NCBI RefSeq assembly: GCF_024721115.1 | Contig: NZ_JAMDHK010000010.1 | Span: 1-64,000, forward strand | DNA from: Salipiger pentaromativorans | GTDB taxonomy: Bacteria > Pseudomonadota > Alphaproteobacteria > Rhodobacterales > Rhodobacteraceae | Direction: 5' to 3' | DNA length: 64,000 nucleotides | Shown: positions 7,404 through 33,997 of the stretch, piece after piece | How the letters are laid out: each line of letters starts with the position of its first letter | How positions within the stretch are numbered: position 1 is the stretch's first letter | The notes under the pieces: model-generated | Databases searched by the model: none | What the model was told of the DNA's origin: nothing | Seen by the model: the letters and a program-made list of their open reading frames with translations, nothing else | Position numbers and translations under genes: made by a program

Positions 7404-7475
7404 GCCCCGATCCTCTCCAACTGCCTAAATTCCTACCACGCGACAAGTCGCGGGGTGCGTCAAGAAACGCTTCAA

Positions 7476-7508: not shown

Positions 7509-7538
7509 ATAAATTATCAACAGAACAGGGTAGGTAAA

Positions 7539-8504
7539 ATGAAAATCTTCCGGAATATTTTGTTTGCAGCGCAATGTGTTGCCTTCGCTCCGGCGGCCGC
7601 CATGGCGCAGGATGCCATTGCGGTGGCAGAGCCGAACTGGGCCAGCGGCCGGGCGATGGCGGCGCTGGTTTCGGTGGTCATCGAAAGCAAACTCGGCCAG
7701 CAGGTCGAAATCGTGCCCGGCGCCAATGCGGTGATCTTTGCGGGCATGGACCGGGGCAAGGGCGAGATCGACGTGCATCCCGATGTGTGGCTGCCCAATC
7801 TCGAAAGCCTGCGCAAAGAGTTCATCGAGGAGAAGCAGACGGTCCGCCTGAGCGAAAACTACTACACCGGCTTTTCGGCGTTCTGTGCGCTGCGCGAATT
7901 TGCCGAAGCCAACAACATCACCTCGGTCTTCGATCTGGCCACGCCCGAGGCGGCGGCGCTCTTCGACAAGGACGGCGACGGGATGGGCGAAATCTGGGTT
8001 GGCGCTCCGGGCTGGACCTCGACCAACCAGAATCTCGTGAAGGTGCGCGATTACGGCATCGCCAATTTCTTCGAGCCGGTGCAGACCGAGGAGCAGGTGG
8101 CAAGCGCCTCGTTCTCGAGCGCGATGGAGCGCGGCGAGGGGGCGGTGTTTTACTGCTACGCGCCGCATTACAACTGGTTCGTCTTCGACATGATCCGGCT
8201 GGAAGAGCCGCCGTTCGACCCCGAACACTATGTGATGGTGAATCCGAACGAAGATCCGGCCTGGTTCGAGAAGTCGAAGATCACGGTGGGCGATCAGGAC
8301 AAGACGGTGCATGTGGCCTATTCCGCCTCGCTTGAAGAGCGCGCGCCGCTGGTGGCCGAGTTCCTGTCGCGGATCGCGATGGATACCGACACGGTCAACG
8401 CCTTCACCAACGAGATCGTGGTCAAGGGTCGCGCGCCGCGCGAGGTGGCCGAGGAATGGGTCGCCGCCAACAGCGAGCGCATCGACGAATGGCTGGGCCT
8501 GTGA
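7539..8504 (+). CDS. glycine betaine/quaternary-amine ABC substrate-binding protein
   Basis: 321 residues. A cleavable signal peptide is visible (MKIFRNILFAAQCVAFAPAA, cleavage near AMAQ-DA). The mature part has the OpuAC/ProX pattern: VAEPNWASGRAMAALVSVVI, EIVPGANAVIFAGMDRGKGE and DVHPDVWLPN. Aromatic residues for a cation-pi cage are plentiful (YYTGFSAFCAL, YNWFVFD). It heads a three-gene importer operon with ATPase and permease downstream, separated from them by a strong hairpin. Substrate in the betaine/choline class is likely by family; the flavoprotein nearby suggests an N-methylated glycine derivative. Confidence 0.88.
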   Translation: MKIFRNILFAAQCVAFAPAAAMAQDAIAVAEPNWASGRAMAALVSVVIESKLGQQVEIVPGANAVIFAGMDRGKGEIDVHPDVWLPNLESLRKEFIEEKQTVRLSENYYTGFSAFCALREFAEANNITSVFDLATPEAAALFDKDGDGMGEIWVGAPGWTSTNQNLVKVRDYGIANFFEPVQTEEQVASASFSSAMERGEGAVFYCYAPHYNWFVFDMIRLEEPPFDPEHYVMVNPNEDPAWFEKSKITVGDQDKTVHVAYSASLEERAPLVAEFLSRIAMDTDTVNAFTNEIVVKGRAPREVAEEWVAANSERIDEWLGL

Positions 8505-8520
8505 GCCAAGCCGCAACCCA

Positions 8521-8555
8521 CCCTGGGCAGGGTCAGCCCTGCCCAGGGTTTCTTT
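8521..8555 (+). terminator. attenuator-type terminator after binding-protein gene
   Basis: A perfect 12-bp stem (8521-8532 pairing with 8537-8548, arm CCCTGGGCAGGG) with a TCAG loop, followed by TTTCTTT. It lies inside the operon between the binding-protein and ATPase genes. Partial termination here would give more periplasmic binding protein than membrane complex. Confidence 0.75.
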
Positions 8556-8583
8556 CCAAGGACGAGCGAAGGACGCAGGGCGC

Positions 8584-9648
8584 ATGACTGATCCTCTGGA
8601 GACCGCCGAGATCGTCGTGGAGGTGGCCAATGTCTGGAAGATCTTCGGCGCGCGGGATGCCGAGGCCATGGCCGCCATCCGCGCCGAGGGGCTGGGCAAG
8701 GCCGAGGTGCTGGAGCGGTTCGATTGCGTGGTCGGCGTGGCCGATGCCAGCTTTCAGGTGCGGCGCGGCGAGATCTTTTGCGTCATGGGATTGTCGGGCA
8801 GCGGCAAGTCGACGCTGGTGCGCCACATCAACCGTCTGCTGAGCCCGACGGCGGGCAAGGTGGTGGTGGCGGGCCGCGACGTGACCGCGCTCTCCGAGTC
8901 CGAGCTGCTGGCGGTGCGCAACAAATCCATCGCCATGGTGTTCCAGGATTTCGGGCTGATGCCGCACCGCTCGGTGCGGGACAATGTGGCGATGCCGCTG
9001 GAGATCCGGGGCGTGTCGCGCAACGCGCGCTGGACGCGGGCGCAGGATGCGCTGGATCTGGTGAATCTCTCGGACTGGGGTGACAAGTTCGCCCATGAGC
9101 TTTCGGGCGGCATGCAGCAGCGCGTGGGGCTGGCCCGCGCCATCGCCGCCGATGCCGAGGTGCTGCTGATGGACGAGCCCTTCTCGGCGCTCGACCCGCT
9201 GATCCGGCGGCAGTTGCAAGAGCAGTTCATGACGCTGGCCAAGGACATGGGAAAGACCACGGTCTTCATCACCCACGATCTGGAAGAGGCGGTGCGCATC
9301 GGCGACCGGATCGCGATCATGCGCGACGGGGTGATCGTGCAGACCGGCACGCCGGAAGAGATCATCCTCGACCCAGCCGACGATTACGTGGCCGATTTCG
9401 TCTCGGGCATCTCGCGGATCAATCTCATCAAGGCGCATTCGCTGCTGCGGCCGCTCGACAGTTTCACACCGGGCCTGACCGCCGATGCGCCGCATATGCC
9501 CGAAAGCGCGACACTCCGGCAGCTCATCGAGATCGCCGCCGAAACCGACAGCCCCATTGTCGTCGACGATGCGCAGGGGCGGCCGATGGGCGCGGTCTCG
9601 CGCCACGAATTGCTGAACGGAGTCATCACGGGAACCGCCGCCACATGA
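8584..9648 (+). CDS. ProV-like ABC ATPase of quaternary-amine importer
   Basis: 354 residues from ATG 8584. It carries the ProV/OpuAA-specific N-terminal segment (VWKIFGARDAEAMAAIRAEG), Walker A GLSGSGKST (69-77), signature LSGGMQQR (173-180), Walker B LLMDEP (194-199) and the switch His in FITHD. The C-terminal 100 residues, ending IVVDDAQGRPMGAVSRHELL, resemble a degenerate single CBS-like tail; the paired CBS osmosensor of classic OpuA appears shortened. A longer upstream frame overlapping the binding-protein gene is rejected because homology begins at this ATG. The stop overlaps the permease start as ATGA. Confidence 0.9.
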   Translation: MTDPLETAEIVVEVANVWKIFGARDAEAMAAIRAEGLGKAEVLERFDCVVGVADASFQVRRGEIFCVMGLSGSGKSTLVRHINRLLSPTAGKVVVAGRDVTALSESELLAVRNKSIAMVFQDFGLMPHRSVRDNVAMPLEIRGVSRNARWTRAQDALDLVNLSDWGDKFAHELSGGMQQRVGLARAIAADAEVLLMDEPFSALDPLIRRQLQEQFMTLAKDMGKTTVFITHDLEEAVRIGDRIAIMRDGVIVQTGTPEEIILDPADDYVADFVSGISRINLIKAHSLLRPLDSFTPGLTADAPHMPESATLRQLIEIAAETDSPIVVDDAQGRPMGAVSRHELLNGVITGTAAT

Positions 9649-19096: not shown

Positions 19097-20000
19097 TCCC
19101 GTCACGCTCGCCACAGACGCCCCCGACACCGGCACCGCCCGCGCCGCGCTGGCCGGATTCTGGAGCGATTTCCGCCGCAACCGGGGCGCCGTGATCGGGC
19201 TCGCGGTGATCGGCCTGCTGGTGCTCGTCGCGCTCTTCGCGCCGCTGCTCGCGCCGCACGACCCGACGCAGCAATACCGCGATGCGCTGCTGCTGCCGCC
19301 GGTCTGGGAGACCGGGGGTCGGGGCGCCTATCTGCTCGGCACCGACGCGCTTGGCCGCGACATCCTCTCGCGGCTGATCTTCGGCGCGCGCTATTCGCTG
19401 CTGATCGGGCTGATGGTGGTGACTATCGCGCTGACCGGCGGCATCGCCATCGGGCTGGTATCGGGCTATTTCGGCGGCTGGATCGACACGCTGATCATGC
19501 GGGTGATGGACGTGATCCTCGCCTTCCCCTCGCTGCTGCTGGCGCTGGTGCTGGTGGCGATCCTCGGCCCCGGGCTCACCAATGCGATGATTGCCATCGC
19601 GCTGGTGCTGCAACCGCATTTCGCCCGGCTCGCGCGCGCCAGCGTGATGAGCGAGAAGACCCGCGAATACGTGGTTGCTGCGCGCATCGCCGGGGCCTCG
19701 CCGCTGCGGCTGATGGTGTGGACGATCCTGCCCAACTGTCTCGCGCCGCTGATCGTGCAGGGCACGCTCTCCTTCTCCACCGCGATCCTCGACGCCGCCG
19801 CGCTCGGCTTTCTCGGGCTCGGCGCGCAGCCGCCCACCCCGGAATGGGGCACCATGCTCGCCGATGCGCGCGAGTTCATCCTGCGCGCCTGGTGGGTCGT
19901 GACCTTTCCCGGCCTCGCCATCCTGATCACCGTGCTGGCGATCAACCTGTGCGGCGACGGGCTGCGCGATGCGCTCGATCCCCGGCTCAAGAGGAGCTGA
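19089..20000 (+). CDS. peptide-type ABC permease (DppC-like)
   Basis: 303 residues from ATG 19089. The N-terminal OppC segment (FWSDFRRNRGAVIGLAVIGL) is followed by LLGTDALGRDILSRLIFGAR, the DppC hallmark, and the EAA loop EYVVAARIAGASPLRLMVWT. Ends LRDALDPRLKRS, typical for the family. Forms the transmembrane heterodimer with the upstream permease. The start lies within the upstream gene, giving tight coupling. Confidence 0.9.
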   Translation: MADPVTLATDAPDTGTARAALAGFWSDFRRNRGAVIGLAVIGLLVLVALFAPLLAPHDPTQQYRDALLLPPVWETGGRGAYLLGTDALGRDILSRLIFGARYSLLIGLMVVTIALTGGIAIGLVSGYFGGWIDTLIMRVMDVILAFPSLLLALVLVAILGPGLTNAMIAIALVLQPHFARLARASVMSEKTREYVVAARIAGASPLRLMVWTILPNCLAPLIVQGTLSFSTAILDAAALGFLGLGAQPPTPEWGTMLADAREFILRAWWVVTFPGLAILITVLAINLCGDGLRDALDPRLKRS

Positions 20001-20001
20001 G

Positions 20002-20823
20002 ATGTCCCATCTTCTCGAAATCCGCAACCTGACGGTGACATTCGACACCGCCAAGGGCCCGCTCACCGCCGTCTCCGGCATCGACCTGCATGTCGATGGG
20101 GGCGAGGTGCTGGCCATCGTCGGCGAAAGCGGCTCGGGCAAGTCGGTGGCGATGCTGGCGGTGATGGGGCTTTTGCCCGACACCGCCACGGTCCGCGCCG
20201 ATCTGGTGCGCTTCGACGGCACCGATCTCATGGCGCTGAGCCCGCGCGCCCGCCGCCGCATCATCGGCCGCGACATCGCGATGATCTTTCAGGAGCCCGT
20301 CGCCTCTCTGAACCCGGCCTTCACCGTCGGCCTCCAGATCGGCGAGGTGCTGAAAAAGCACCAGGGGCTTGGCCGCGCCGCCCGCCGCGTGCGCACGCTG
20401 GCGCTGCTGGAGGCGGTCGGGCTGCCCGACCCGGTGGCCAAGCTCACGGCCTTTCCGCACCAGATGTCCGGCGGCCAGTGCCAGCGGGTGATGATCGCCA
20501 TGGCCATCGCCTGCGCCCCCAAGCTGCTGATCGCCGACGAGCCGACGACGGCGCTCGACGTGACCATTCAGAAGCAGATCCTCGACCTGCTCATCGACCT
20601 TCAGGAGGAGAGCGGCATGGGGCTGATCATGATCACCCACGACATGGGCGTGGTGGCGGAAACCGCCGACCGCGTTGTCGTCCAGTACCAGGGCGTGAAG
20701 CGCGAGGAAGCGGACGTGCTGTCGCTCTTCGAGACGCCGCAGGATTCCTATACCCGCGCGCTGCTCTCGGCCCTGCCGGAGCGCGGCGGCGACGGGCCGC
20801 TCGACGGGGTGACGTTCCAATGA
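20002..20823 (+). CDS. peptide-type ABC ATPase (DppD-like, short)
   Basis: 273 residues from ATG 20002 with GAGGAG upstream. Walker A GESGSGKSVAML, signature MSGGQCQRVMIAMA and Walker B LLIADEP are intact. It is about 50 residues shorter than typical DppD: the C-terminal oligopeptide-transporter extension with its Cys-rich RC..RC motif is missing, the protein ending soon after TPQDSYTRALLSALPERGGD. Catalytic competence should not be affected. Pairs with the next ATPase; the genes overlap as ATGA. Confidence 0.88.
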   Translation: MSHLLEIRNLTVTFDTAKGPLTAVSGIDLHVDGGEVLAIVGESGSGKSVAMLAVMGLLPDTATVRADLVRFDGTDLMALSPRARRRIIGRDIAMIFQEPVASLNPAFTVGLQIGEVLKKHQGLGRAARRVRTLALLEAVGLPDPVAKLTAFPHQMSGGQCQRVMIAMAIACAPKLLIADEPTTALDVTIQKQILDLLIDLQEESGMGLIMITHDMGVVAETADRVVVQYQGVKREEADVLSLFETPQDSYTRALLSALPERGGDGPLDGVTFQ

Positions 20824-21677
20824 CCGTCCGGCCTCCCATCGTGCTCGAAGCCCAGGGGCTGATCCGAGACTATCCCGGCAAGGGCGGCCTGTTGCGCAAG
20901 GCCAGTCCGGTGCGCGCCCTGAAGGGCGTCGACCTGGTGCTGCGCCAGGGCCGCACCCTGTCGGTTGTGGGCGAGTCGGGCTGCGGCAAATCCACTCTCG
21001 CCCGGATCCTGACGCTGATCGACCCGGCCAGCGGCGGTACGCTCCTTATCGACGGCAAGGCGGTGGACATCGCCCGCTTTCGCCCCTCGGCGGAGTTGCG
21101 GCGCAAGGCGCGGATCGTCTTCCAGAACCCTTATGGTTCGCTCAACCCGCGTCAGAAGGTCGGCGACGCGCTGGCCGAGGAGCTGCTGCTCAACACCGGC
21201 CTCAATGCGGCGGAGCGGCGCGCGCGGGTCGGCGACATGCTGGAACGCGTCGGCCTGAGCGCCGCCCATGCCGGGCGCTACCCGCATATGTTCTCGGGCG
21301 GTCAGCGCCAGCGCATCGCCATCGCCCGGGCGCTGATGGTCAACCCGCGCATCCTGATCCTCGACGAGCCGGTCAGTGCGCTGGATCTCTCGGTACAGGC
21401 CCGGGTTCTGAACCTGCTGGCCGATCTGCAACGCGATTTCGACCTTTCCTATATCTTCATCAGCCACGATCTCTCGGTGGTGCGCCGGATCTCGGACGAG
21501 GTGATGGTGATGCAGGCCGGAGAGGTGGTCGAGCGCGGCAGCCGCGACGCCGTCTTCGGCGACCCGAAACACCCCTATACCCGCCAGCTTCTCGCCGCGA
21601 CGCCCTCGACCGACACCGGCGCCATCCGCGCACGACTGGCCCGCCGGGCCGCGCTGCGTGCCGCACGCGGCGCCTGA
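20820..21677 (+). CDS. peptide-type ABC ATPase (DppF-like)
   Basis: 285 residues from ATG 20820, overlapping the previous stop. Walker A GESGCGKSTLARI, Q-loop IVFQNPYGSLNPRQKVGDAL, signature FSGGQRQRIAIARALMVNPR and Walker B ILILDEPVSALD are all present. The C-terminal Cys extension is again truncated (PSTDTGAIRARLARRAALRA). Completes a six-component importer with the genes at 14901 and 18089-20823. The next gene, an FMN enzyme, follows by 12 bp in the same operon. Confidence 0.88.
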   Translation: MTVRPPIVLEAQGLIRDYPGKGGLLRKASPVRALKGVDLVLRQGRTLSVVGESGCGKSTLARILTLIDPASGGTLLIDGKAVDIARFRPSAELRRKARIVFQNPYGSLNPRQKVGDALAEELLLNTGLNAAERRARVGDMLERVGLSAAHAGRYPHMFSGGQRQRIAIARALMVNPRILILDEPVSALDLSVQARVLNLLADLQRDFDLSYIFISHDLSVVRRISDEVMVMQAGEVVERGSRDAVFGDPKHPYTRQLLAATPSTDTGAIRARLARRAALRAARGA

Positions 21678-21689
21678 CAGGAGACCACG

Positions 21690-22793
21690 ATGACCGAGCA
21701 AGACGAGATCCGTCGTGACGACCGCTATGCCACATCCCGGAAATACGCCTCGATGCGCGGCATCCGCGTGGCGGCGCGGCGGGCGCTGTCGGAGACGGTC
21801 TGGAACTACCTGCATTGCGGCACAGGCGACGAGGTCACCGCCCGTACCAATGTGTCGGCCTTCGACGGCTATCTCTACGAGGTGCCGCTCTTTGCCGGGG
21901 TCGCCAATCCCGACACCAGCACAAGTTTTCTCGGCGAAGCGCTGTCCTTCCCCGCCCTCACCGCACCCTTCGGCGGCGGCGAGACGCTGTTTCACCCCGA
22001 CGGCATGCTCGCCGTGGGCCGCGCCGCCCATGCCGCCGGCATCCGCCAGATGGTGCCCGTCGCCGCCGGACATACACTGGAGGAGGTGCGCGCCGCCTCT
22101 CCCGCCGCGCTGGTCTTTCAGATGACCTTCTGCGGCAGGGAAAACCATGTGATCGACATGATGCACCGGGCCAAAGACGCGGGCTATCGCTATATCTGCG
22201 TCACCTATTCGCCGATCCGCCAGTGGCGCGAGCGCATGATGGAGGATCGCTTTTCCATGCCCGGCGCGGGGGCGCCGTCGAATTTCGGTCCCGGAAAATC
22301 CGACCCGGCGATGCTGCGCGAACTGCTCGATTTCACCGAACCGCGCTGGAGCTGGGAGCAGGCGGCGCGGGTGATCGGCGCGGCCCCCTTGCCCTGCCTC
22401 GTCAAAGGCGTGACCAGCCGTGCCGATGCGCGCGCCGCGCTGAAGGCCGGGGCGCATGGGCTCTATGTCTCCAACTACGGCGGCCGCACCATCGACCGCG
22501 AGCCCGCCGCGATCACCACGCTCGCCGAGGTGCGGGCCGAGGCCGGGCCCGATGTGCCGATTGTCTTCGACAGCGGCATAAGGCGTGGCAGCGACATCGC
22601 CACCGCCCTGGCGCTTGGCGCCGATGCGGTCGCACTGGGCCGCACCTGCGCGCTCGGGCTTGCCGCCGATGGCGAAGCCGGGGTCCGTCGCGTGCTGGAG
22701 CTGCTGAAGGATGAGTTCTGGACGACGCTCGGGCATCTGGGCTGCGCTTCCGTCCGCGGCCTGACACCCGGGATCTTCCGGGCACCGCGATGA
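21690..22793 (+). CDS. FMN alpha-hydroxyacid oxidase-like protein lacking the catalytic His
   Basis: 367 residues with the glycolate/lactate-oxidase TIM barrel: LPCLVKGVTSRADARAALKA (FMN lysine), YVSNYGGRTID, VPIVFDSGIRRGSDIATALA and LGADAVALGRT for FMN phosphate binding. In active enzymes the fourth motif reads SNHGGRQ-D, its His being the catalytic base. Here the codon at 22476-22478 encodes Tyr263. The barrel tyrosine normally in the QLY motif also appears replaced (VFQMTFCGRENH). FMN binding looks intact but normal hydroxyacid chemistry is doubtful. A changed reaction (amine or imine oxidation, or decarboxylation) is possible; its operon partners are two DadA-like flavoproteins and RidA. 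Confidence 0.8.
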   Translation: MTEQDEIRRDDRYATSRKYASMRGIRVAARRALSETVWNYLHCGTGDEVTARTNVSAFDGYLYEVPLFAGVANPDTSTSFLGEALSFPALTAPFGGGETLFHPDGMLAVGRAAHAAGIRQMVPVAAGHTLEEVRAASPAALVFQMTFCGRENHVIDMMHRAKDAGYRYICVTYSPIRQWRERMMEDRFSMPGAGAPSNFGPGKSDPAMLRELLDFTEPRWSWEQAARVIGAAPLPCLVKGVTSRADARAALKAGAHGLYVSNYGGRTIDREPAAITTLAEVRAEAGPDVPIVFDSGIRRGSDIATALALGADAVALGRTCALGLAADGEAGVRRVLELLKDEFWTTLGHLGCASVRGLTPGIFRAPR

Positions 22794-23899
22794 AGGTTGC
22801 GGTCATCGGCGCCGGGGCCATCGGCGCGAATATCGCCTACCGGCTGGCCGAGCGCGGTGCCGAAGTCGTGCTGATCGACGGGCGCGCGCCGGGCTCGGGG
22901 ACCAGCGGCGCCTCCTTCTCCTGGCTGTCTTCTTTTCCGCAGCTTAGCTGGCCCGAGGCCGAGGCGCGGCGACGCCTGCGGCGTTCGGTGAAGGCGCATT
23001 TCGACCGGCTGGCCGAAGAGATCGGCGGCGACTGGCTCGATTGGTGCGGCACGCTGACGACGCAAGGCGCGGTGCCTGAGTTCGACGATGCCGTGGCGCG
23101 CTGCCGCGAGCAGGGCGCGCAGATCGAGATCCTGGGCGCGGCGGATCTGCGCGACGTTGCACCAGAGCTCGCCCTGCCCGACGCCGAGCGCGTCGCCTTC
23201 GAGCTGCGCTCGGGCTGGATCGATGCTCCGGCGATGATCGGGCAGTTGCTGCGGGTCTTCCGCCTGAGCGGCGGCAGCTTGCGGCTGGGCCACGACGTGG
23301 TGGCGCTTGCGATCGGGGGGCCGGGTGCTGCCACGGTCGGTCTTGCCGATGGCAGCCGGATCGAAGCCGATCTCGTGGTCAATGCCGGCGGCGCTCAGGC
23401 GACCCATATCGCTGCCATGGCGGGGCTCGCGATTCCGGTCGCGCTCGTGCCCGGCGTGATGCTCTACGGCGGCGGCGGACGCACCGGCCTGCCGCGTCAT
23501 GTGGTGAACGGCGCCCGCTGGCTGATCCGGCCGGATCGCGCGTTCGGCACCGCCGTCCACTGGCGCGGCGCAGGGCTGACCGCCCGGCACGGCAACAACG
23601 GCCACGACGGCACGGCGATGCTGGCCGATGTCGCGCAAAGCGTGCCCGCACTTGCCGGGGTGTCACCCGCGGCGCACCGCGTGGGCATCAGGGCGATGCC
23701 CCAGGGCGGGCCAGTCATCGGCCGGCTTCCCTGGCTGCCGCGCTATTACTCCGCCGTTTCCCATGGCGGCATCGGTTGGGGTCCGGTCTGGGCAGAGATC
23801 GCCGCCGCCGAGATCCTCGACGGCACATCCGAGGCGGCGCTCGACACCATGCGCCCGGCACGGTTCTATTTCGAAGCCGCGCCAGACAAAGAGGTGTGA
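22790..23899 (+). CDS. second FAD-dependent DAO-family oxidoreductase
   Basis: 369 residues. VIGAGAIGANIAYRLAERGA is the N-terminal FAD fold and SGTSGASFSWLSSFPQLSWP the second conserved block; the C-terminal half contains HRVGIRAMPQGGPVIGRLPW and a final SHGGIGWGPVWAEIAAAEIL segment. It resembles glycine/D-amino-acid oxidases. Overlaps the FMN-protein gene as ATGA and ends the operon. Together with the gene at 16505 this gives two non-identical DAO-type enzymes in one operon, suggesting successive oxidations or two related substrates. Substrate unknown. Confidence 0.82.
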   Translation: MKVAVIGAGAIGANIAYRLAERGAEVVLIDGRAPGSGTSGASFSWLSSFPQLSWPEAEARRRLRRSVKAHFDRLAEEIGGDWLDWCGTLTTQGAVPEFDDAVARCREQGAQIEILGAADLRDVAPELALPDAERVAFELRSGWIDAPAMIGQLLRVFRLSGGSLRLGHDVVALAIGGPGAATVGLADGSRIEADLVVNAGGAQATHIAAMAGLAIPVALVPGVMLYGGGGRTGLPRHVVNGARWLIRPDRAFGTAVHWRGAGLTARHGNNGHDGTAMLADVAQSVPALAGVSPAAHRVGIRAMPQGGPVIGRLPWLPRYYSAVSHGGIGWGPVWAEIAAAEILDGTSEAALDTMRPARFYFEAAPDKEV

Positions 23900-24382: not shown

Positions 24383-25036
24383 CTAGCGGCTGTGTGGTCC
24401 CTGACCGCCGGAATTGAGCCCCATTCGCGTGGCGTGCCACGAGGCTTCGGCCCGCGACGAGATGCCGAGCTTGCGGTAGATGGACTTGATGTAGCTCGCG
24501 ACGGTGGTGTTCGCGAGGCCGAGTTCGCGACCGACCTCGCTGTTGCGCAGGCCCCGCGCGATCAGGGCAAGCACCTCGGTCTCGCGCTCGGTCAGATCCT
24601 GCCCGGCGGTGGCGTTCGGCCCGGTCAGGCTGAAATGCTCCATGATGCGCCGCGCGATCGACGGTGACAGCGCGGGCAGACCCATGTGGATCTGCCGGAG
24701 CTGGTGGATCAGAAGGGTGGCCGGGTTCTCCTTGAGCAGATAGCCCTGCGCCCCCGCCGACAGCGCGCCGACGACGCTTGCGTCGTCGCCCATCACGGTG
24801 GTGACCACACAGACCGTGGGGCTTTGCGCATCGCGTAGCTGCCGCAGCAGATCCAGCCCCGACCCGTCGGGCAGACCCAGGTCGATCAGTGCCAGATCGG
24901 GCGCGTTCGGCAGCAGCATCCGGGCCCGGCGCAACGTATCGGCGGTGTCGATCTGCGCATCGGGAAAGACCTCGGCGGCGATCTCTGCCAGCCAGCGCCG
25001 GGTCTCGGAAATATCCTCGACAATCAGGATCCGCAT
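24383..25036 (-). CDS. NarL/FixJ-type response regulator
   Basis: 217 residues. Receiver domain 1-120 with acidic pocket E7/D8, phosphoacceptor D52 (LALIDLGLPDGSG), T80 and K102 (GYLLKEN). LuxR HTH at about 148-207 (LTERETEVLALIARGLRNSE, ASYIKSIYRKLGISSRAEAS). The start shares one base with the kinase stop (TGATG), so the two are coupled. As the divergent neighbours are a surface lipoprotein and its translocator, those are the likely targets (inferred). Not convincingly assigned to any named system. Confidence 0.9.
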   Translation of the reverse strand: MRILIVEDISETRRWLAEIAAEVFPDAQIDTADTLRRARMLLPNAPDLALIDLGLPDGSGLDLLRQLRDAQSPTVCVVTTVMGDDASVVGALSAGAQGYLLKENPATLLIHQLRQIHMGLPALSPSIARRIMEHFSLTGPNATAGQDLTERETEVLALIARGLRNSEVGRELGLANTTVASYIKSIYRKLGISSRAEASWHATRMGLNSGGQGPHSR

Positions 25037-27270
25037 CAGCCAGCGCCTCCCGCTGCCGTCGCCCCGCCGGCCCCGTCGCAGACCAGCGGCAGCGCCGCGT
25101 CGATCCGGGTGCCATCGGGGCCGGAGGCGATCCGGAGCGTGCCGCCGCAGCCCTCGATCCGGAACCGCAGGTTCGCGAGCCCGTTGCCCCCGCCCGTCCC
25201 GGCCGCCGAATGCCCCGTCCCGTCATCGGCGATGCGGATCTCGAGCCACTCGCCCGACGGCCCCGCCACCCGGGCAAGCGTGACCGCGGCATGGCCGGCG
25301 CCGGAATGGCGCAGGATATTGCCCGCGCTCTCGCGCAGCAGCGCGCGCAGCGTCTGTACCAGCTGCGGCGGCAGCTCGTCAGCACCGTCCTCCGCCCGCG
25401 ACAGCCCGCCGTCCCGCCAGTCGAGCTCGACCCCCGCCGCTTCGAGATGATCGCCGATCTCGCGGCGCAGATCGCCCAGCAGCCGCGCCAGACCGACTGT
25501 CCCCTGCACCGGGTTCGAAATGATCTGGCGCAGATCCGAAAGAGTCTGCCGGATCAGCATGTCCTTGCGCTCGGTTTCGCTGGAATGCAGCGCGCCCAGA
25601 AGCTGCACCCCGATATTGTCGTGCATGTCGCGATTGATGCGCTGCCGCTCGGTCTCGATGGCCGCGTCATGGCTCCGCTGGCGGGCGACCGAACGTTCCA
25701 GCATGCCGGTCACGCTGCGCGCCAGACGCTCGTCGCGCGAGCTGAACAGCCGCCTGCCCTGCCGCGCCCAATGCAGCCGCACGCCGGGCAGGTCGTAGGG
25801 CAGTGGCATCTCCAGTATCTCGCCGCCCTGGCTCAGCCGGGTGAGGCCGCTGACCGGCCTGCCCTGCTCGATGCGCAGCGGGTCGAACAGCCGTTGCAGC
25901 AGCCGCGTCAATGCCGCGTCGCGGCCTGGCGCGTCCGCGGCCAGCGTCACCTCTTCCATCAGCGAGAACAGCTCCTCGCGGGACAGGCCCCGCTCGTTCC
26001 GCAGCCAGCGGGCCACAAGGTCGCGCAGCGGCAGATAGACCAGCCCCACAAGCGCCAGCGACAGGCCGAGCGCCGGGGCGCGGTCGAGCGCCAGAAGCAG
26101 CGTCAGCGCCGCGTCCAGCGCCAGCAGCAGGACCACGCCGCCGAGATAGAAGAGAATGCGGAACGACCAGTCGGCCAGATCGAACAGCCTGTAGCGCGCG
26201 ATCCCCATGGCGAGCCCGGCGAAAATCACCAGGAAGAACAAAAAGGCATGGCCTTGCGACAGAACGGGCGGCAGCCCCATGAGCAGCGGCAGGGTGACCG
26301 TCAGGCCAAAGCCCCCTGCCCCCAGCAGCACCGAGAGTCCGAACCATCCCAGCATGGCCCGGGTGGTTGGGTTGCCCCGCGCCTTCACCACCTGCACCAG
26401 GATCGCCCCGAGCAGCGCCAGCATGGCCAGCGCGACGGGAAGCTGCCGGTCGAGCAGCGCATCGGGCCAGTCGAGAAAGACCGCCAGAATGAAGCTCGAC
26501 AAAAATGCCGCCACGACCCAGAGCACCACCCGTCCGGCGATCCGCGCCGGGTAGATCAGGAACAGGTTGACCATGCCGATGCCGAACAGCAGGGTCCCGA
26601 GGAAATTGACCTTCGAGGCCAGCGGGAAAAGCACCGCTCCAAGCGCCAGCTCGCGGGTGCTGTAGAGGGCCGCGGCATAGGCCGAGGTCATCAGCCCGGC
26701 CCCGGCCAGACCAAAGCAGCGTACCGCGCGGTCGCCGGGCCGCAGCGCCATCACCCAGCCGCCGAGAACCATCCCGACGAGCCCGACGCCGATCTGAAGC
26801 CAAAAGGCGCCGGGCAGGTCCGACAAAGGCCGCGACGGCTGCGGAACAAGCGTCACCTCGACCGCTGCCCCCCCGTCCGGGGGCCGCGCCGTCGCCACGA
26901 CGGGCCCGCTTTGCAGAAGCGCGTGAATTGCGGCCTGGCGCCGGAGGAAGGCGCGCATGATGTCGGGACCGGGCAGCGCATCGGGCTCTTCGATCAGGTC
27001 TTCGGAGGACAGCGCCAGCGCCGTATCGCCCGGCGCGGTTCCGGCGCGCAGCGCCAGCAGTTCCGTACCGGGCGCGATCCGCCCTGCGGCACTGCCTCGC
27101 GGATGCACCGCCCGGACCGTCACCCCGTCTGACAACCCCGGTTCGAGGGTTAGCCCGAGCCATGGCTGACGATGGGCGAGCCAGAGCACCAGCGCCGCCG
27201 CCACGAGACCGGCGATCAGCACCGACAGGGCGACCGAGACCGGGGAGAGGTGAGAATAAGCCTGCTTCAT
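25036..27270 (-). CDS. sensor histidine kinase with PDZ-like input and multi-span membrane domain (NarX/HPK7 type)
   Basis: 744 residues from ATG 27270, which gives MKQAYSHLSPVSVALSVLIA, a clean first transmembrane helix; longer in-frame starts to 27408 add an unlikely leader. Next is an extracytoplasmic region of about 120 residues with a PDZ-like pattern (PWLGLTLEPGLSDGVTVRAV, GRIAPGTELLALRAG), then about nine transmembrane helices. The dimerisation box INRDMHDNIGVQLLGALH carries the phosphorylated H550. The ATPase domain has the N-box ESAGNILRHSG and G-box DDGTGH...GNGLANLRFRIE. This input arrangement, PDZ-like loop plus a many-helix sensor, is uncommon. It faces the lipoprotein gene divergently. 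Confidence 0.85.
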   Translation of the reverse strand: MKQAYSHLSPVSVALSVLIAGLVAAALVLWLAHRQPWLGLTLEPGLSDGVTVRAVHPRGSAAGRIAPGTELLALRAGTAPGDTALALSSEDLIEEPDALPGPDIMRAFLRRQAAIHALLQSGPVVATARPPDGGAAVEVTLVPQPSRPLSDLPGAFWLQIGVGLVGMVLGGWVMALRPGDRAVRCFGLAGAGLMTSAYAAALYSTRELALGAVLFPLASKVNFLGTLLFGIGMVNLFLIYPARIAGRVVLWVVAAFLSSFILAVFLDWPDALLDRQLPVALAMLALLGAILVQVVKARGNPTTRAMLGWFGLSVLLGAGGFGLTVTLPLLMGLPPVLSQGHAFLFFLVIFAGLAMGIARYRLFDLADWSFRILFYLGGVVLLLALDAALTLLLALDRAPALGLSLALVGLVYLPLRDLVARWLRNERGLSREELFSLMEEVTLAADAPGRDAALTRLLQRLFDPLRIEQGRPVSGLTRLSQGGEILEMPLPYDLPGVRLHWARQGRRLFSSRDERLARSVTGMLERSVARQRSHDAAIETERQRINRDMHDNIGVQLLGALHSSETERKDMLIRQTLSDLRQIISNPVQGTVGLARLLGDLRREIGDHLEAAGVELDWRDGGLSRAEDGADELPPQLVQTLRALLRESAGNILRHSGAGHAAVTLARVAGPSGEWLEIRIADDGTGHSAAGTGGGNGLANLRFRIEGCGGTLRIASGPDGTRIDAALPLVCDGAGGATAAGGAG

Positions 27271-27428
27271 GGCGACCGGTGAAAGACGGATGGTTTTGGC
27301 AAAACCTGAAATGTTCCCCCTGCTTAGAGGAGGTTGGATCACCTGCATACCCCTGAACGGGGGGGAGACAGGCCCCTTTTTGGCCTTCATATCGACGGGC
27401 ACTGTCATTTTTTAAGGGGATCAGACAG
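27271..27428. promoter_or_regulatory. divergent control region between kinase and lipoprotein genes
   Basis: Two small inverted repeats: CCCC-TGAACG-GGGG around 27350-27362, preceded by TA so that it begins TACCCCT as NarL-type heptamers do, and AGGCC-CCTTTTT-GGCCT at 27370-27386. AAGGGG lies 8 nt before the ATG at 27429. Either repeat could be the site of the adjacent response regulator; this is unproven. Confidence 0.35.
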
Positions 27429-28133
27429 ATGCGTATTCACGTTCTTGCGCGCGCCGGCCTGGCGCTGGCGCTCGCCACCGCTGTGGCCGGGTGCCTGGGC
27501 AACAGCGGCAGCGGCGGCGGCGGAAACGGCCAGGGGGCCGGCGCCGGCAGCGGCGGCTCCGGTTCGGGCTCCGCGATGAACTTCCAGCAAAATTTCGACC
27601 GTGTGAGCGCCATGGCGCCGACGTCGAACATGCCGACCTCGATCCAGGCGGCCTATTCCGGCAAGATGCGCGCGGATGTGACCGACGCCAACAATGTCGT
27701 GGCCCAGGTCGAGGGGGATCTGGACCTCAATGTCGACTGGACCGACGGCCAGACGACGAACCCGTTCACCGGCACCGCGTCGAACTTTACCGGGACGCTG
27801 GTCACCGGCGAGACCGGTACGATCAACGGCACCCTGACGGTGGACAACAGCTTTGGCGGCACCATCAACCGGACGGTGAACCCCGCGATGGTCATCAACG
27901 GCATCAACGTGCCCGCGACCCAGATCGGCGGACTCAGCGTCACGCTGACCGGCGATCTGACCCAGGGCGGCGTCACGGCGGACACGCTGATCACCCTTGG
28001 CGGCGCCTTCTTTGGCGACAAGGGCAAGGCCGCGCTTGGGCCGGTGGTCGGCGGCTACAAGCTTCCGAACTCGGCGAACCCGGCGATCTTCGACGGCGCC
28101 ATCGCCGGTCAGTACTACATCGAAGCCAAATGA
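27429..28133 (+). CDS. surface lipoprotein with TbpB-like beta-barrel domain (probable Slam substrate)
   Basis: 234 residues. Lipoprotein signal: a hydrophobic stretch to AVAGC, with Cys about residue 21 lipidated. A Gly/Ser-rich tether follows (residues 22-48), then a single Gly/Thr-rich beta domain with repeated strands (FTGTASNFTGTLVTGETGTI, GGLSVTLTGDLTQGG) ending in the TbpB-type closing motif LGGAFFGDKGKAALGPVVGG and a final beta strand AGQYYIEAK. Such domains occur in TbpB, HpuA and related Slam-exported lipoproteins. The next gene, with an ATGA overlap, encodes a Slam-like protein. The ligand is unknown: no TonB receptor is adjacent, so iron-protein binding cannot be assumed. Confidence 0.75.
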   Translation: MRIHVLARAGLALALATAVAGCLGNSGSGGGGNGQGAGAGSGGSGSGSAMNFQQNFDRVSAMAPTSNMPTSIQAAYSGKMRADVTDANNVVAQVEGDLDLNVDWTDGQTTNPFTGTASNFTGTLVTGETGTINGTLTVDNSFGGTINRTVNPAMVINGINVPATQIGGLSVTLTGDLTQGGVTADTLITLGGAFFGDKGKAALGPVVGGYKLPNSANPAIFDGAIAGQYYIEAK

Positions 28134-29476
28134 TGTCCTGGACGGCGCGGCGCGGCGAAACGCTTCGCCGCGCCGCCTTGATCTTTGTCTCCGGGATCGT
28201 TCTCGGCACCCTGCCCCTGTCTCACAAGGCAGGGGCACAGGGGACCGATGCGATGGCCCGTGCCGAAGCGCAGGTCAATGCCGGAGCCTATGGCGAGGCC
28301 ATCGCGGCGCTTGAATCCATGGGCGCGCAACCCCAGCCGGAGGCCGAGGCACGCAGGCTCTGGGCGCTGGCCATGGCCCATGTGCGCGCCGGGCGGCCGC
28401 GCGCCGCGCTGCCCCATCTGGAAAGACTGGTGTCGCTGGCCCCGGCCAACGCCAGCGTCCGTCTCGAACTTGCCGCCGCGCTGGAGAGCGCAGGCCAGAC
28501 GGAACGCGCCCGCTATCACTACGCGCTCGCACGCGGGGCCAACCTGTCCGGCGATCTGGCGCAGGAGGTGGACCGGCGCATCGACCGGATCGACCGCGCC
28601 AAGAACTGGGAGGGCAGTTTCCGCTTTGCCTACACCCCCGAAAGCAATGCCGCGCGGCGCACCGCTGCCGAGACGGTCGTCATCGGCGATCTGCCCTTCC
28701 GCCTGAAATCCGCGTCGCGCGCCCAACCCGCCAAGGGCGTCGAGCTTGCGTTCGGCCTTGCCGCCCTGCCGAAGCTCGGCGAGGATCTGCGCCTGCGGTT
28801 CGGCGCAAGCCTCGACGCCCGGCTTTACGACGGCGGCGCGCCCGACGACATCCAGGCCCGCGCCGAGCTGGGGTTTCTGCAATTCGGCGATCACCGCCGC
28901 CGGTTCGGTGGCGGGCTGATCCTGGGGCAGCGCTGGATCGACTCAAAGCCCTACTCCAGCTCACGCGGGCTTTATCTGAACTGGGGCCGCGCGCTGGATT
29001 CCAGGGCCCGCACCAACCTGTCGTTTACCCTCCTCCGCGAGCAGATCGACTACGAGCGGCGCACCGCCTCCGGGACCACCCGCAGCGTTCTCGCCGCCTC
29101 GCTGACCCATATCGCGAGCCAGCGGCTGCAACTGAGCTTCGGGCTGCAACTCGAACGCACCGACGACGTCCTTGCGTCCGAAGCCGGCGATACGGGCGCG
29201 ATCACGCTGGGCGCGCGCTATGCGTTTCGCGGCGGGCTTCTGGCGGATCTGACGATGACCTTCAGCCGGCAGGAGCGCGACGGTCCGGACAGTCTTTTGG
29301 GCATCACGCGCTCGGATCACCGGCAGAACATTGATCTGAAGCTGACCCATCGCGACTGGGCCGTGGGCGGCTTTGCCCCGGTGCTGGAACTCGGGGTGGA
29401 AAAGCAGCGCTCGACCAACACGCTTTACAGCTACGACAACCAGCGCATCCTGATCGGGGTCACGCGGCGCTTTTGA
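28130..29476 (+). CDS. Slam-like outer-membrane translocator (TPR + beta barrel, DUF560 type)
   Basis: 448 residues from the ATG overlapping the lipoprotein stop (a second ATG follows at 28133). A signal-peptide-like start (LIFVSGIVLGTLPLSHKAGA) is followed by TPR-like helices at about 45-160 (EAQVNAGAYGEAIAALESMG, GRPRAALPHLERLVSLAPAN, LRLELAAALESAGQTERARY pattern). From about 165 come alternating amphipathic strands to a terminal Phe (IGVTRRF), as in outer-membrane barrels. TPR plus a roughly 14-strand barrel is the Slam architecture (type XI secretion), which moves lipoproteins such as TbpB to the cell surface. Coupling to a TbpB-like lipoprotein gene makes the assignment strong, though substrate specificity is inferred. 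Confidence 0.78.
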   Translation: MMSWTARRGETLRRAALIFVSGIVLGTLPLSHKAGAQGTDAMARAEAQVNAGAYGEAIAALESMGAQPQPEAEARRLWALAMAHVRAGRPRAALPHLERLVSLAPANASVRLELAAALESAGQTERARYHYALARGANLSGDLAQEVDRRIDRIDRAKNWEGSFRFAYTPESNAARRTAAETVVIGDLPFRLKSASRAQPAKGVELAFGLAALPKLGEDLRLRFGASLDARLYDGGAPDDIQARAELGFLQFGDHRRRFGGGLILGQRWIDSKPYSSSRGLYLNWGRALDSRARTNLSFTLLREQIDYERRTASGTTRSVLAASLTHIASQRLQLSFGLQLERTDDVLASEAGDTGAITLGARYAFRGGLLADLTMTFSRQERDGPDSLLGITRSDHRQNIDLKLTHRDWAVGGFAPVLELGVEKQRSTNTLYSYDNQRILIGVTRRF

Positions 29477-29926: not shown

Positions 29927-32900
29927 TCAGACGAGAATCTCCATGTTTGCAACGGTCTCCAGATCCGCACGCATGAAGACGACCGAGACGCCCTGATCCG
30001 CGAACACCAGGTCCTTTCCCACTTCGGTCATGTGCGACCGTGCGTCGTCCGCGTCGGCATAGCCGAAGCCGCTGAAACTCAGCGTATCCCAGGCATCGAG
30101 TTCCAGAACCCGATCGCGTCCCTTGTCCGATACGTCAAAGGCAAACTCGTCCGCCAGCATCCCGCCATAGATCAGATCGTTGTCTGGACCGCCGCGGAAA
30201 CTGTCGCCCTCGGTGGCGCGCATATAGGTCATGAACGCGGTTTCGGTCTTGGCGATGAACTCCGCGCTGGCGGCAAAGCCGAGCACGACCGCCTCGCGGC
30301 TCATCCCGTCCTCGAGGCGCTGCGTCCAGTTCGCCAGCCCGTTGGCATCGGGATCGCGGCCCAGCACATTGTTGTAAAGCAGCGTGACAAAACCGGTGTT
30401 GCTGACATTGCCATACACACTCTGGAATTCGGTGCTGTTCACAAAGCCCGAGATCACCGTGAGGATTTCGGTGCCCTCACCCAGCCTTGCAGACCAGTTC
30501 ATCAGGCCGTTGAGGTCCGGCGCCCGGTCGAGCGTCGCCTGATAGATCCGGAAGACGTCATCGGCATAGGTCGCCGCGACACCGGCCGCGACATAGGCGC
30601 TGGCGGGTTCGTTGGTATTGTCGATGAACTCGGCACTCTGGGCGAAACCGAGCACGACCTGCTCGCGCGACGTGCCGCTGTCGAGCCGCGCCGTCCAGTT
30701 GGCAAGGCCCGTGGCATCCGCCTCGCGCCCGAGCACGTTGAGATAGAGCAGCTCGACAAAGGCCCGGTTGTTCAGCGCGCCGTAGGTCGACTGGAACTCG
30801 GGGCTGTTGACGAAGCCCCCGATTACCTGGAGCAGAGTCATCTCGCCGCTGTCGATCCGCGCCGACCAGTTGTCATACCCCTGCGTGTCGGGCAGACGGT
30901 CGAGCGTCGCCTGATAGAGCCGATAGACCTGTGCCCCCGCGGTGGTGCTGACATCCTCGACCTCGCCGCCGATGAGCAGATCCGCGCCGGGACCGCCGTT
31001 CAGACGATCGGAGCCGGCACCGCCGATGATCGTATCGGCCCCATGGTTGCCGAAGGCGGTGTCGTTGCCCTCGAGCCCGCGATAATGGTCGCTGCCGGCC
31101 AGCAGGTCGATCAGATCATCGCCGACGGTGCCCACCAGAACGTCATCCTGCGGGCTGGGCAGCAGCGGCCCGGGGCGGATGTAGATCACGGTATCGGCGA
31201 TCGAGCCCGCATAGGGCGTGCCCGCCACCGGTTCGAGCGAGAGGGTAAAGGCCTCGGTCGTCTCGATGCTGGAGTCCCCCAGCACCTCGATGGTGATCGT
31301 CGCGACGCTCTGGCCCTCGGCAAAGTTCAGGCGGGTGTCCAAGAGCCGATAGTCCAGCCCCGCCAGCGCGGTCTGGTCGATGGCCTCGACGTTGAAGCTC
31401 AGCGGTGCGCTGGCGGGTGTCGAAAGCTCCACCGGGATCTCGTAGATGAAGGAAGCGACGCCATGCTCGCGCAGCACCATGGGCTGGACGGTGGCGGTAC
31501 GGTTCAGCCCGACCCCGTCATCGTCGAGGATCGTACCGCTGACCGAGACCGAGGGCGCCCCGTCGGCAAGGCTGGCGCCGATGACGTTGGAGAACTCCAT
31601 GAAGAAGACCTCGTCGCGTTCGTCGATGCTGTCTCTTTCGGAGTGGATGATCACCGTCTTCGAGGTCTGCCCGGGTTCGAAGGTCAGCGTCCCGGTGTTG
31701 TTGCGCGACGTCAGGCTGTAATAGAGGTCGTTTTCGTCCGCCGTGCCGACCAGCGGCTTGTAATCCACCGTCACGGCATCGTCCGACGGTTCAGACAGCG
31801 TCAGCGTGAACAGCAGGGCGTCGCCCTCGGTGGCCGTGGCCGGGCTGACGGTGATCACCGGGTTCGGCGTGGTGTCGTCGTCGCGGATCACCGCCTCGGC
31901 CTCGACATTCTCGATCCCCAGATAGGGCACGGCAGAGGCATCGACCCGCAGGCCGAAGCGTTCCGTGAACTCGACCTCGGTGTCGCCATAGACCGGCACG
32001 CGCACGACCTTGACCTCTTCCCCGACCGCGAAGCTGACCGTGCCGACCGCTGCCTCGTAATCCTCGCCGGCCTTGGCCGTGATGTCGCGGGTGCTGTAGG
32101 TGAGCAGGATCGCTTCCGACGCCGGTTGCGACAGGCGCAGTTCGAACACTGCCTCCTTGGTGCCGTCGTCGCCCTCGAGCAGAGTCGCGCCCGAGACCAG
32201 CAGCGTCATGTTCCCGCCAACGCCATCGTTGTCGAGGATTACACCGTTGGTGAAGAGCTGGTCCTCCCCCCCGGCAAAGCTGGCGTTCTCGGTAAGATTG
32301 TAGAGCCGCAGCCCGATGCTTTCATCGCGCTCGTCGGTGCTATCTCTTTCGGTGTAGACAATGATTGTTTTCGAGATCTGGCCCGGCGCAAAGCTCAGGG
32401 TGTTGATATTGCGGTCGGATTCGAAGTCGTAGTCGAGGTCGGCTTCGTCCGCAGTGCCCGCAAAGCTCTGATATCTCAGCGCCACCTCGTCCCCGGCGGG
32501 CTCGGAAAGCGTCACGGTATAGATCAGCGCTTCGCCCTCGGTCGCCCTGGCCACCGAAACCGAGACCACAGGGCCCGGGGTATTGTCGTCGTCGGCAATG
32601 GTCGCCTCACCGGCCAGGCCCGTCGTCGCGACGCTGAGCCCCGTGGGTTCATCAATGACAAGCGCAAAACTTTCGGTCATCTCGGCGACGGTGTCGCCAT
32701 AGACCGGCACCCGCACGACCTTGACCTCCTCGCCCTCGGCAAAGGACAGGCTGCCCACGGTCTCCTCATAATCCTCACCCGCCGTAGCCGAGATGTCGCG
32801 GGTGCGGTAGCCGACGCTGAACGCCGTCGGAGCGGGCTGCGACAGGCGGATTTCAAACACCGCTTCCTTGGTGCCGCTGTCGCCCTCGACCAGCCGCACA

Positions 32901-33997
32901 TCCGACACCAGAAGTGCAAGATCGCTGCCGGTGCCATCGTTGTCGAGAATGATGCCGGTGCCGGACAGGACCTCCTCGCCACCCGCAAAGCTCGCGTTTT
33001 CGGTCAGGCCGGACAGGTGGAGCACCACGCTTTCGTCGCGTTCGTCGGTGCTGTCTCTTTCGGTGTAGATGGTCACCGTCCTCGAGGTCTCGCCGGGCGC
33101 GAAGGTCAGCGTGTTCCAGTTGTAGCTGGAGGTCGGGCTGTAGTAGAGATCGCCGTCCGAAGCCGTACCGGGCACCGCGCGATAGGTCATGGTCACCGCA
33201 TCGAAAGTCGGCTCGGAGAGGGTGACGGTATAGACCAGCCCCTCGCCCTCGACCGCCTTGGCAGCGGAGATCGACACCACCGGCTGCGGTTGCGTGTCGT
33301 CGTCGCGGATCACTGCCTCGCCGACCAGGCCCTCCACCGGCAGGTTGGGGCTGCCGGGATCGGTCACGACAAGCGCGAAGCTTTCCGTCACTTCCGCAAG
33401 ATTATCGCCATAGACCGGCACGCGCACCGTCTTGATCTGGTCGCCCACGGCAAAGCGCGCGCTGCCGTTCCATTCCGCGTAATCCTCGCCGGCGGTGGCG
33501 GAAATATCGCGGGTGCGGTAGCTGACGCTGAAACTTTCATCGGCTGGCCGCGACAACACCAGATCGAATTCCGCATATTTGGTGCCACCGTCGCCCTCGA
33601 CGAGCTCGGCATCCGAAACCAGCAACGCCAGATTGCTGCCCTGCCCGTCGTTGTCGAGAATGATTCCCATGGCGCGCTCGATGTCCTCGCCGCTGGCGAA
33701 GCTGGCATTTTCGGACAGGCCCGACAGGCGCAGCATGATATTCTCGTCGCGCTCGTCATCGGAATCGCTACGGGTGTAGACGGTCAGCGTCTTCGAGGTT
33801 TCGCCGGGCGCGAACGTCAGCGTGCCGCGGTTATTGCTATTGGTGATAGCGTAATACAGATCGCTGTTGTTGGCCGTACCCAGAACGGTCTGGTAATTCA
33901 CCGTGACGACATCGAAGGCGGCTTCATCCAGAGTGACGGTGAAATAGAGAGCGTCGCCTTCGGTGGCGAAGGCGGTTGAGATGGAAACGACAGGCAT
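29927..33997 (-). CDS. large Calx-beta / RTX / DUF4214 protein, probable type I secretion substrate
   Basis: 1356 residues with no N-terminal signal peptide. Residues 1 to about 935 are eight Calx-beta-like domains of about 115 residues in alternating A and B forms (A: TEGDALYFTVTLDE, GTANNSDLYY, SDDERDENIMLRL; B: EGDGGTKYAEFDLVLSRPA, TRDISATAGEDYAEWNGS, VRVPVYGDNLAEVTESFAL). Residues about 944-1012 have RTX nonapeptides (GLEGNDTAFGNHGADTIIGG). Residues 1016-1255 hold four DUF4214 units in two pairs (IYQATLDRAPDLNGLMNWSA, NVLGREADATGLANWTARLD). A short RTX segment and an acidic/aromatic C terminus follow, the usual secretion signal. Likely a Ca2+-stabilised surface adhesin or matrix protein. 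GGGGAG precedes ATG 33997. No type I exporter genes lie nearby. Confidence 0.85.
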   Translation of the reverse strand: MPVVSISTAFATEGDALYFTVTLDEAAFDVVTVNYQTVLGTANNSDLYYAITNSNNRGTLTFAPGETSKTLTVYTRSDSDDERDENIMLRLSGLSENASFASGEDIERAMGIILDNDGQGSNLALLVSDAELVEGDGGTKYAEFDLVLSRPADESFSVSYRTRDISATAGEDYAEWNGSARFAVGDQIKTVRVPVYGDNLAEVTESFALVVTDPGSPNLPVEGLVGEAVIRDDDTQPQPVVSISAAKAVEGEGLVYTVTLSEPTFDAVTMTYRAVPGTASDGDLYYSPTSSYNWNTLTFAPGETSRTVTIYTERDSTDERDESVVLHLSGLTENASFAGGEEVLSGTGIILDNDGTGSDLALLVSDVRLVEGDSGTKEAVFEIRLSQPAPTAFSVGYRTRDISATAGEDYEETVGSLSFAEGEEVKVVRVPVYGDTVAEMTESFALVIDEPTGLSVATTGLAGEATIADDDNTPGPVVSVSVARATEGEALIYTVTLSEPAGDEVALRYQSFAGTADEADLDYDFESDRNINTLSFAPGQISKTIIVYTERDSTDERDESIGLRLYNLTENASFAGGEDQLFTNGVILDNDGVGGNMTLLVSGATLLEGDDGTKEAVFELRLSQPASEAILLTYSTRDITAKAGEDYEAAVGTVSFAVGEEVKVVRVPVYGDTEVEFTERFGLRVDASAVPYLGIENVEAEAVIRDDDTTPNPVITVSPATATEGDALLFTLTLSEPSDDAVTVDYKPLVGTADENDLYYSLTSRNNTGTLTFEPGQTSKTVIIHSERDSIDERDEVFFMEFSNVIGASLADGAPSVSVSGTILDDDGVGLNRTATVQPMVLREHGVASFIYEIPVELSTPASAPLSFNVEAIDQTALAGLDYRLLDTRLNFAEGQSVATITIEVLGDSSIETTEAFTLSLEPVAGTPYAGSIADTVIYIRPGPLLPSPQDDVLVGTVGDDLIDLLAGSDHYRGLEGNDTAFGNHGADTIIGGAGSDRLNGGPGADLLIGGEVEDVSTTAGAQVYRLYQATLDRLPDTQGYDNWSARIDSGEMTLLQVIGGFVNSPEFQSTYGALNNRAFVELLYLNVLGREADATGLANWTARLDSGTSREQVVLGFAQSAEFIDNTNEPASAYVAAGVAATYADDVFRIYQATLDRAPDLNGLMNWSARLGEGTEILTVISGFVNSTEFQSVYGNVSNTGFVTLLYNNVLGRDPDANGLANWTQRLEDGMSREAVVLGFAASAEFIAKTETAFMTYMRATEGDSFRGGPDNDLIYGGMLADEFAFDVSDKGRDRVLELDAWDTLSFSGFGYADADDARSHMTEVGKDLVFADQGVSVVFMRADLETVANMEILV

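Follow-up and report, generated by a model that had tools for sequence, protein, structure and literature searches.

The window analysed here, a stretch of 64,000 nucleotides of Salipiger pentaromativorans DNA, carries a lipoprotein gene that runs into the gene of an outer-membrane barrel protein, and this raises the question of whether the two form a surface-export pair of the Slam (type 11) kind and, if they do, what determines when the pair is expressed. A sequence-only reading had described the first product as a lipobox protein with a Gly/Ser tether and a closing motif, and all of these elements were present: the cargo lipoprotein gene (27429..28133, + strand) encodes 234 aa with a hydrophobic leader (signal peptide), a lipobox ending at Cys22 (VAG-C22), a Gly/Ser stretch at about residues 24-48, approximately 186 folded residues (barrel, 49-234) and the closing motif LGGAFFGDKGKAALG. 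Cys22 was conserved without exception across the 14 aligned cargo proteins. The overlap with a gene for a TPR and outer-membrane-barrel protein ending in Phe was likewise observed, as an ATGA that joins the cargo gene to the gene of the Slam-like translocator (28130..29476, + strand; 448 aa), in which a leader recognised by eye precedes a TPR region and a SlipAM barrel at residues 160-448 and whose C-terminal residue is Phe.

Likeness to Slam barrels, the lack of which had been named beforehand as the point that would speak against the proposal, was found with the SlipAM model PF04575, which matched the Slam-like protein along the full length of the model (1-288 of 288) at 8.8e-31 and 107.9 bits against a cut-off of 22. 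Two TPR models scored above their cut-offs (TPR_19 with 29.9 bits and TPR_14 with 25.3 bits), and the TPR_Slam model stayed below its own (17.1 bits, with 35.2 needed). This Slam was the single match to PF04575 in the genome of the window.

Searches with the cargo against Pfam and NCBIfam gave no match at E up to 1. The cargo of the window, the only one modelled, was predicted with AlphaFold2 from 14 aligned sequences, and the model reached a pLDDT of at least 90 in 157 of 234 residues, with residues 1-48 below 50. Eight long strands (71-85, 90-105, 113-124, 129-138, 164-179, 182-195, 201-211 and 223-233) are consistent with an eight-stranded barrel, whose closure we infer from the model; the structure prediction proposed as a check on the earlier claim thus returned a barrel-like lipoprotein, and no handle or second lobe was seen in it. 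The best PDB matches that Foldseek retrieved for it were generic barrels, PsbO and PagP among them, alongside other proteins; no match had an E of 0.001 or below, and TbpB was not among the best 50 PDB matches listed. When the cargo profile was searched against PDB sequences, the matches were weak, with a best E of 0.076, and lay mostly over the linker.

Profile comparison with hhalign aligned the cargo with TbpB_B_D-type ORFs at 93.3% (E 2.7e-7), colinearly through Y-x-G and the closing motif F-(F/Y)-G. The comparison profile consisted of the C-terminal 160 residues of 19 family ORFs found through PF01298, one of the 20 TbpB_B_D loci (L097) being left out because the excised frame there was Slam, and eight controls (Slam, kinase, a reversed profile and five column shuffles) all remained at or below 1.0%. 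PF01298 itself (TbpB_B_D) matched neither the cargo, at E up to 1, nor anything else in the window's genome. In G191, which has a related module, the cargo region scored above the PF01298 cut-off when the DNA was searched (E 1.3e-5), and hmmscan of the whole ORF as excised showed no PF01298 match at E up to 0.1; the cargo relatives in L079 and L070 reached 0.002, below the cut-off. The claim of a single TbpB-like beta domain therefore held for the fold, through the eight strands and the hhalign result, and failed as a Pfam match, just as the proposed HMM check succeeded with the SlipAM profile on the Slam and missed the cargo with the TbpB_B_D profile. As PF01298 misses the cargo, membership in Pfam TbpB_B_D is ruled out, and given the remote profile similarity we call the cargo TbpB-barrel-like instead. 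Judged from the model, the cargo is nearly only the part said to direct cargo to the translocator, a role that passages of PMC12282271 give to the barrel.

A class-wide search for the cargo, in which up to 8 candidates were scored in each of 337 genomes, found matches in at least 8 of them. Outside the family these were short Gly-rich or N-terminal stretches, with the exception of G345 (2.4e-9 over 6-184 of 219), whose 3.6 kb, searched with a linker-free model, had no match to cargo, Slam or kinase at E up to 1. Because matches outside the family were short or lost without the linker, the cargo family is taken, as far as seen in these sequences, to be confined to Rhodobacterales.

Altogether, these observations support a Slam/type 11 pair at 27429-29476, and the substrate/translocator arrangement suggested earlier is upheld by the SlipAM partner, the predicted eight-stranded barrel, the remote TbpB_B_D likeness and the co-inheritance described below; the pair is predicted, very probably, to place a small lipoprotein of barrel shape at the cell surface. 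Such a pair is of a known kind. Slam1 and Slam2 of Neisseria (type 11), with TbpB, fHbp and other partners, also combine the gene of a SlipAM and TPR protein with that of a lipidated barrel protein beside it. Unlike these, the cargo of the window is one barrel without a predicted handle or second lobe, and a two-component system, not a TonB receptor, lies alongside; the 18 window ORFs scanned, four of which are the module itself, agreed with the earlier statement that TonB receptor and iron genes are lacking.

Rhodobacterales type 11 proteins beside predicted barrel lipoproteins have already been published (Grossman et al. 2025, passages of PMC12282271). In cluster 3 of that work (Rhodobacterales/Roseobacteraceae), 10 of the 11 syntenic loci have a predicted lipidated barrel cargo next to the type 11 protein, so that the bacterial group and the adjoining of cargo and type 11 protein are shared with the window. 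According to the same passages, ThyX, GloA and DUF1194 are found at the cluster 3 syntenic loci and the cargo there measures 282-375 aa, whereas the window has a kinase-regulator pair and a cargo of 234 aa. ThyX, GloA and DUF1194 were not found in the 18 window ORFs scanned, nor among the families with at least two members listed (best 25 of 87) for 85 neighbours of 12 loci. The cargo of marine alphaproteobacterial type 11 systems is stated to be an open question in passages of PMC12282271, and parts of PMC8406197 treat the type 11 family at large. A compact, barrel-only cargo family, together with its translocator and a proposed promoter, is directly testable.

The sequence-only reading did not include a conserved two-component system or its proposed operator, which adjoin the export pair. 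Cargo and Slam sit head to head with a sensor histidine kinase (25036..27270, - strand; 744 aa from MKQAY) and a NarL/LuxR-type response regulator (24383..25036, - strand; 217 aa), whose genes overlap by one base. The longest kinase ORF reaches 27408, and relatives align from MKQAY at 27270. The kinase is laid out as a first membrane helix, a periplasmic PDZ-like domain, a membrane region, a His region and an HATPase; HATPase_c scored above its cut-off and HisKA_3 below (16.9 bits, cut-off 24), and in the motif R-D-x-H-D-N every position except x was invariant in 12 of 12 kinases. In the regulator (GerE 1.6e-16, Response_reg 9.8e-16), the acceptor Asp and the recognition helix, read by eye, were kept in 24 rows. 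With HATPase, receiver and GerE regulator all matched, the pair belongs to the NarL-type two-component systems. It shares the HATPase, the H-box region and the GerE-type regulator with NarL/UhpA-type systems and differs from them in its PDZ-like sensor and in a conserved proposed operator tied to a surface-protein gene.

The sensor domain (26836..27171, - strand; about residues 34-145) follows the first membrane helix and carries a nearly invariant Q-P-W-L-G. Its model had a mean pLDDT of 88.1, and the best Foldseek matches in the PDB were PDZ domains or PDZ-bearing proteases (HtrA, Deg2, CtpA), headed by the PDZ domain 7l71 (probability 1.00, TMt 0.64, E 0.01); the probability was 1.00 in the first four rows and E was 0.01 at best. 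The Pfam PDZ model (PF00595) gave no match in the window kinase and weak matches, below cut-off, in 2 of 9 kinases scanned. The periplasmic domain thus models as a PDZ fold, and its ligand could be a peptide end. The PDZ part is shortened in three Slam-linked kinases (L070, L085 and L086), so that sensing through a PDZ cannot be universal. A periplasmic PDZ also serves as an envelope sensor in DegS, where it senses unassembled outer-membrane proteins (passages of PMC8103513); the PDZ of DegS belongs to a protease, whereas the PDZ-like domain of the window belongs to a histidine kinase. Under the phrases tried, no PDZ histidine kinase was found described in the open-licence literature.

The inheritance of the four genes was followed in 12 loci with a cargo relative, obtained by scanning named genomes with the cargo alignment. 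Laboratory strains that carry the module include Sagittula stellata E-37 and Sulfitobacter pontiacus. By record titles, 11 of the 12 are taken to be Rhodobacterales; the L046 record is titled Enemella evansiae, an actinomycete, and that label is probably wrong. Slam adjoined cargo in all 12 loci, and kinase and regulator were each present in 11, over cargo identities that descend to about 37%. At L048 the regulator was present, no kinase was found and two tandem cargo genes (6961-7701 and 8001-8690) precede Slam; at L052 the contig ends inside the kinase, before the regulator; and at L054 the gene order is rearranged with all four genes still together. Related loci do not count as independent observations. 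Among the 85 neighbours of these loci, no Pfam family was represented by more than four members (E up to 1e-5), and four further genes that flank the module in the window had no relatives at the 12 loci (E up to 1e-10).

Counted from the kinase, 17 of 295 family genomes had a match (E up to 1e-20), reduced to 15 by leaving out G113 (25% identity) and G264 (a fragment). Slam lay within about 5 kb of the kinase in 10 of the 15; in two the kinase was beside a cargo-like lipoprotein with no Slam near, in two neither Slam nor cargo was nearby, and one was at a contig end. Slam occurred anywhere in the genome in 99 of the 295. Four of the 12 named loci are apparently the same as G021, G069, G095 and G225, and the locus and genome counts are thus not independent. 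In a tree of 43 Slams, which includes four genomes twice, the kinase- or regulator-linked Slams formed one main group and a separate pair, L018 and L021 (support 1.0), with L029 joined to the main group weakly (0.198).

The cassette is also found on plasmids of marine bacteria, some of them from algal samples. In a plasmid collection, 11 records had cargo, and in 11 of 11 the kinase was 385-390 bases off, measured between match ends; the four records viewed were annotated with a regulator, an ATPase or ATP-binding protein, a hypothetical protein and a surface lipoprotein assembly modifier. Positions 20000-23823 of the window are 91% identical to the Salipiger abyssi plasmid NZ_CP015091.1, where repABC follows in the module's place, which indicates that the module is sporadic among close relatives.

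Outside the family, the kinase-regulator pair occurred in seven genomes of other alphaproteobacterial families (318 searched, among them the window's genome and a few more of its family). In none of the seven was there a Slam or cargo near the pair (16 kb taken) or a palindrome of the kind described below within the 600 bases around the kinase start. A kinase dedicated to Slam is ruled out by these pairs, which indicate that the sensor was not made for Slam and that its wiring to Slam is not general; we infer that the sensor is older than that wiring.

The divergent intergenic regions share CCCC-(T/C)GAAC-(A/G)GGGG, followed by GAGAC. In the window, the palindrome CCCCTGAACGGGGG (27350..27363, + strand), of the form CCCC-TGAAC-GGGG, abuts the GACA of a proposed cargo-Slam promoter (27365..27393, + strand) with a -35 of GAGACA at 27365-27370, a 17-base spacer and a -10 of CATATC at 27388-27393; the cargo start codon is at 27429. 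The spacing was examined on rows anchored by GGGG and GAC, both demanded, so that the other columns alone count as evidence; L054, with its differing gene order, was left out of the promoter rows, and L075, close to L046, out of the spacing test. Besides the anchor, conservation was seen in the palindrome's left half, in a purine that follows GAC and in an ATA 20-22 bases on, which was exact in 10 of 13 rows, or in 11 of 14 once two plasmid loci were included. The observed 4.52 bits were reached in 0 of 2000 random shifts (best random 2.17). We propose that gaGACA - 17 bases - nATAnn reads as a sigma-70-like promoter, with the palindrome abutting its -35. A palindrome abutting the -35 is in the usual position of an activator (class II), and the one seen here may be the operator of the NarL-type regulator.

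Upstream of the kinase, CCCC-N5-7-GGGG occurred in 20 of 22 loci, compared with a mean of 1.32 and a maximum of 5 of 22 in shuffles; in the remaining two (L054 and L082) it was missing upstream of kinase, cargo and Slam alike. The palindrome was degenerate in the kinase-less L048. A 20-base pattern had one site in each of 8 of the 295 genomes, five of the eight sites being this intergenic region and the other three, in kinase-less genomes, ending in CGAC; its reversed control had no site in the 295. As the pattern was derived from these loci, this test shows specificity, not discovery. With up to 3 mismatches, the 22-mer of the window had a single site in its genome, and a degenerate 20-mer at 3 mismatches was not specific (2 window matches, 1.09 expected).

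These observations suggest that the adjoining sensor system probably turns the export pair on through its own DNA switch. The inner-membrane kinase would read an envelope signal via its PDZ-like domain, its membrane region or both, and, as its family suggests, phosphorylate the NarL-type regulator; the regulator, to judge from conservation and position, would bind the palindrome and activate cargo and Slam. After export and lipidation on Cys22, the lipoprotein would reach the outer membrane, where Slam, guided by the cargo barrel, may move it to the outer face for display on its flexible tether, as family likeness implies. We regard it as likely that the locus is such a regulated type 11 surface-lipoprotein module, running from PDZ sensor through regulator and palindrome to cargo and Slam. 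Export pairs of this kind are known; what looks new is the sensor with its switch, and sensor control of Slam export, as deduced from the sequences, would be new as well. No report that connects two-component systems with type 11 systems was found in the open-licence literature, nor anything on the palindrome in such a context. The main text of PMC12282271 does not mention 'two-component', 'histidine kinase' or 'response regulator', and a term search in PMC5449769 found no mention of Alphaproteobacteria or two-component systems. As far as the literature was searched, the module offers a first handle on when a type 11 system switches on.

A bolder version, which we think unlikely, is that the PDZ domain reads the exposed C-terminus of unassembled Slam or of other outer-membrane proteins and adjusts cargo-Slam output accordingly, with the cassette re-plugged in relatives to DUF4214 and RTX-type extracellular proteins. 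The listed Slams end in RRF or RSF in 13 of 13 cases. If this were true, the system would correspond to DegS in two-component form, with a single surface-lipoprotein exporter under its control.

It is improbable, in our judgement, that the locus holds an ordinary Slam/cargo pair with a two-component system that shares the segment as a bystander, and with a palindrome that serves the kinase-regulator genes alone. Such an arrangement would fit the kinase-regulator pairs that have neither Slam nor cargo close by, which are 2 of the 15 in the family and all 7 in other families, as well as the palindrome kept in the Slam-less family loci L076 and L077; against this, the genes are co-inherited across the whole range of cargo identities, the -10 keeps a fixed distance on the cargo side, and in the Slam tree the linkage is seen on two branches that lie apart. 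We consider it very improbable that the barrel protein faces the periplasm and that the Slam-like barrel is a pore or serves another substrate. The missing Pfam TbpB_B_D match and the rarity of a TbpB_B_D gene at marine-cluster type 11 loci (8 of 145, in passages of PMC12282271) lean that way; the constant adjoining of Slam and cargo, the ATGA gene overlap, the one SlipAM protein of the genome and the remote TbpB_B_D similarity oppose it. A chance or spurious ORF is ruled out by the SlipAM match and the adjoining of Slam and cargo at every one of the 12 loci.

The output of the preferred, regulated module appears to differ between loci. On the Pseudosulfitobacter pseudonitzschiae plasmid NZ_CP087043.1 (L131, 4754-6043), the one viewed of 30 Pseudosulfitobacter plasmid records carrying the kinase, the same kinase and regulator face a divergent DUF4214 gene in the place of cargo and Slam, with the palindrome and the spaced ATA in between; no Slam annotation was seen in the 14 kb shown. 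At L076 the kinase lies opposite an RTX protein of 2491 residues. Given the DUF4214 and RTX partners, the regulated output seems to be 'one extracellular protein', with the Slam lipoprotein as the commonest case in the genomes and loci viewed.

Directly downstream of Slam in the window, and convergent with it, lies the gene of a 1356-aa protein (29927-33997, - strand) that contains RTX repeats, four stretches of DUF4214 and eight of Calx-beta repeats; DUF4214 is thus common to this protein and to the one that faces the switch on the Pseudosulfitobacter plasmid. No palindrome was found upstream of this gene, and it was rejected as a part of the module, since a search of the 12 loci (E up to 1e-10) brought up no relative of it next to the module. 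At L079 (5642-7879 and 1278-5393), the kinase and two palindromes have three lipoproteins in tandem beside them, of which one clearly matches the cargo model and two are alike by eye; this module adjoins a TamB gene (PF04357, 1.8e-48), and there was no Slam match in the 18 kb taken. Finally, G336 had twelve TbpB_B_D matches in one family genome, the most among the genomes listed, and this set is possibly a large pool of type 11 cargo.
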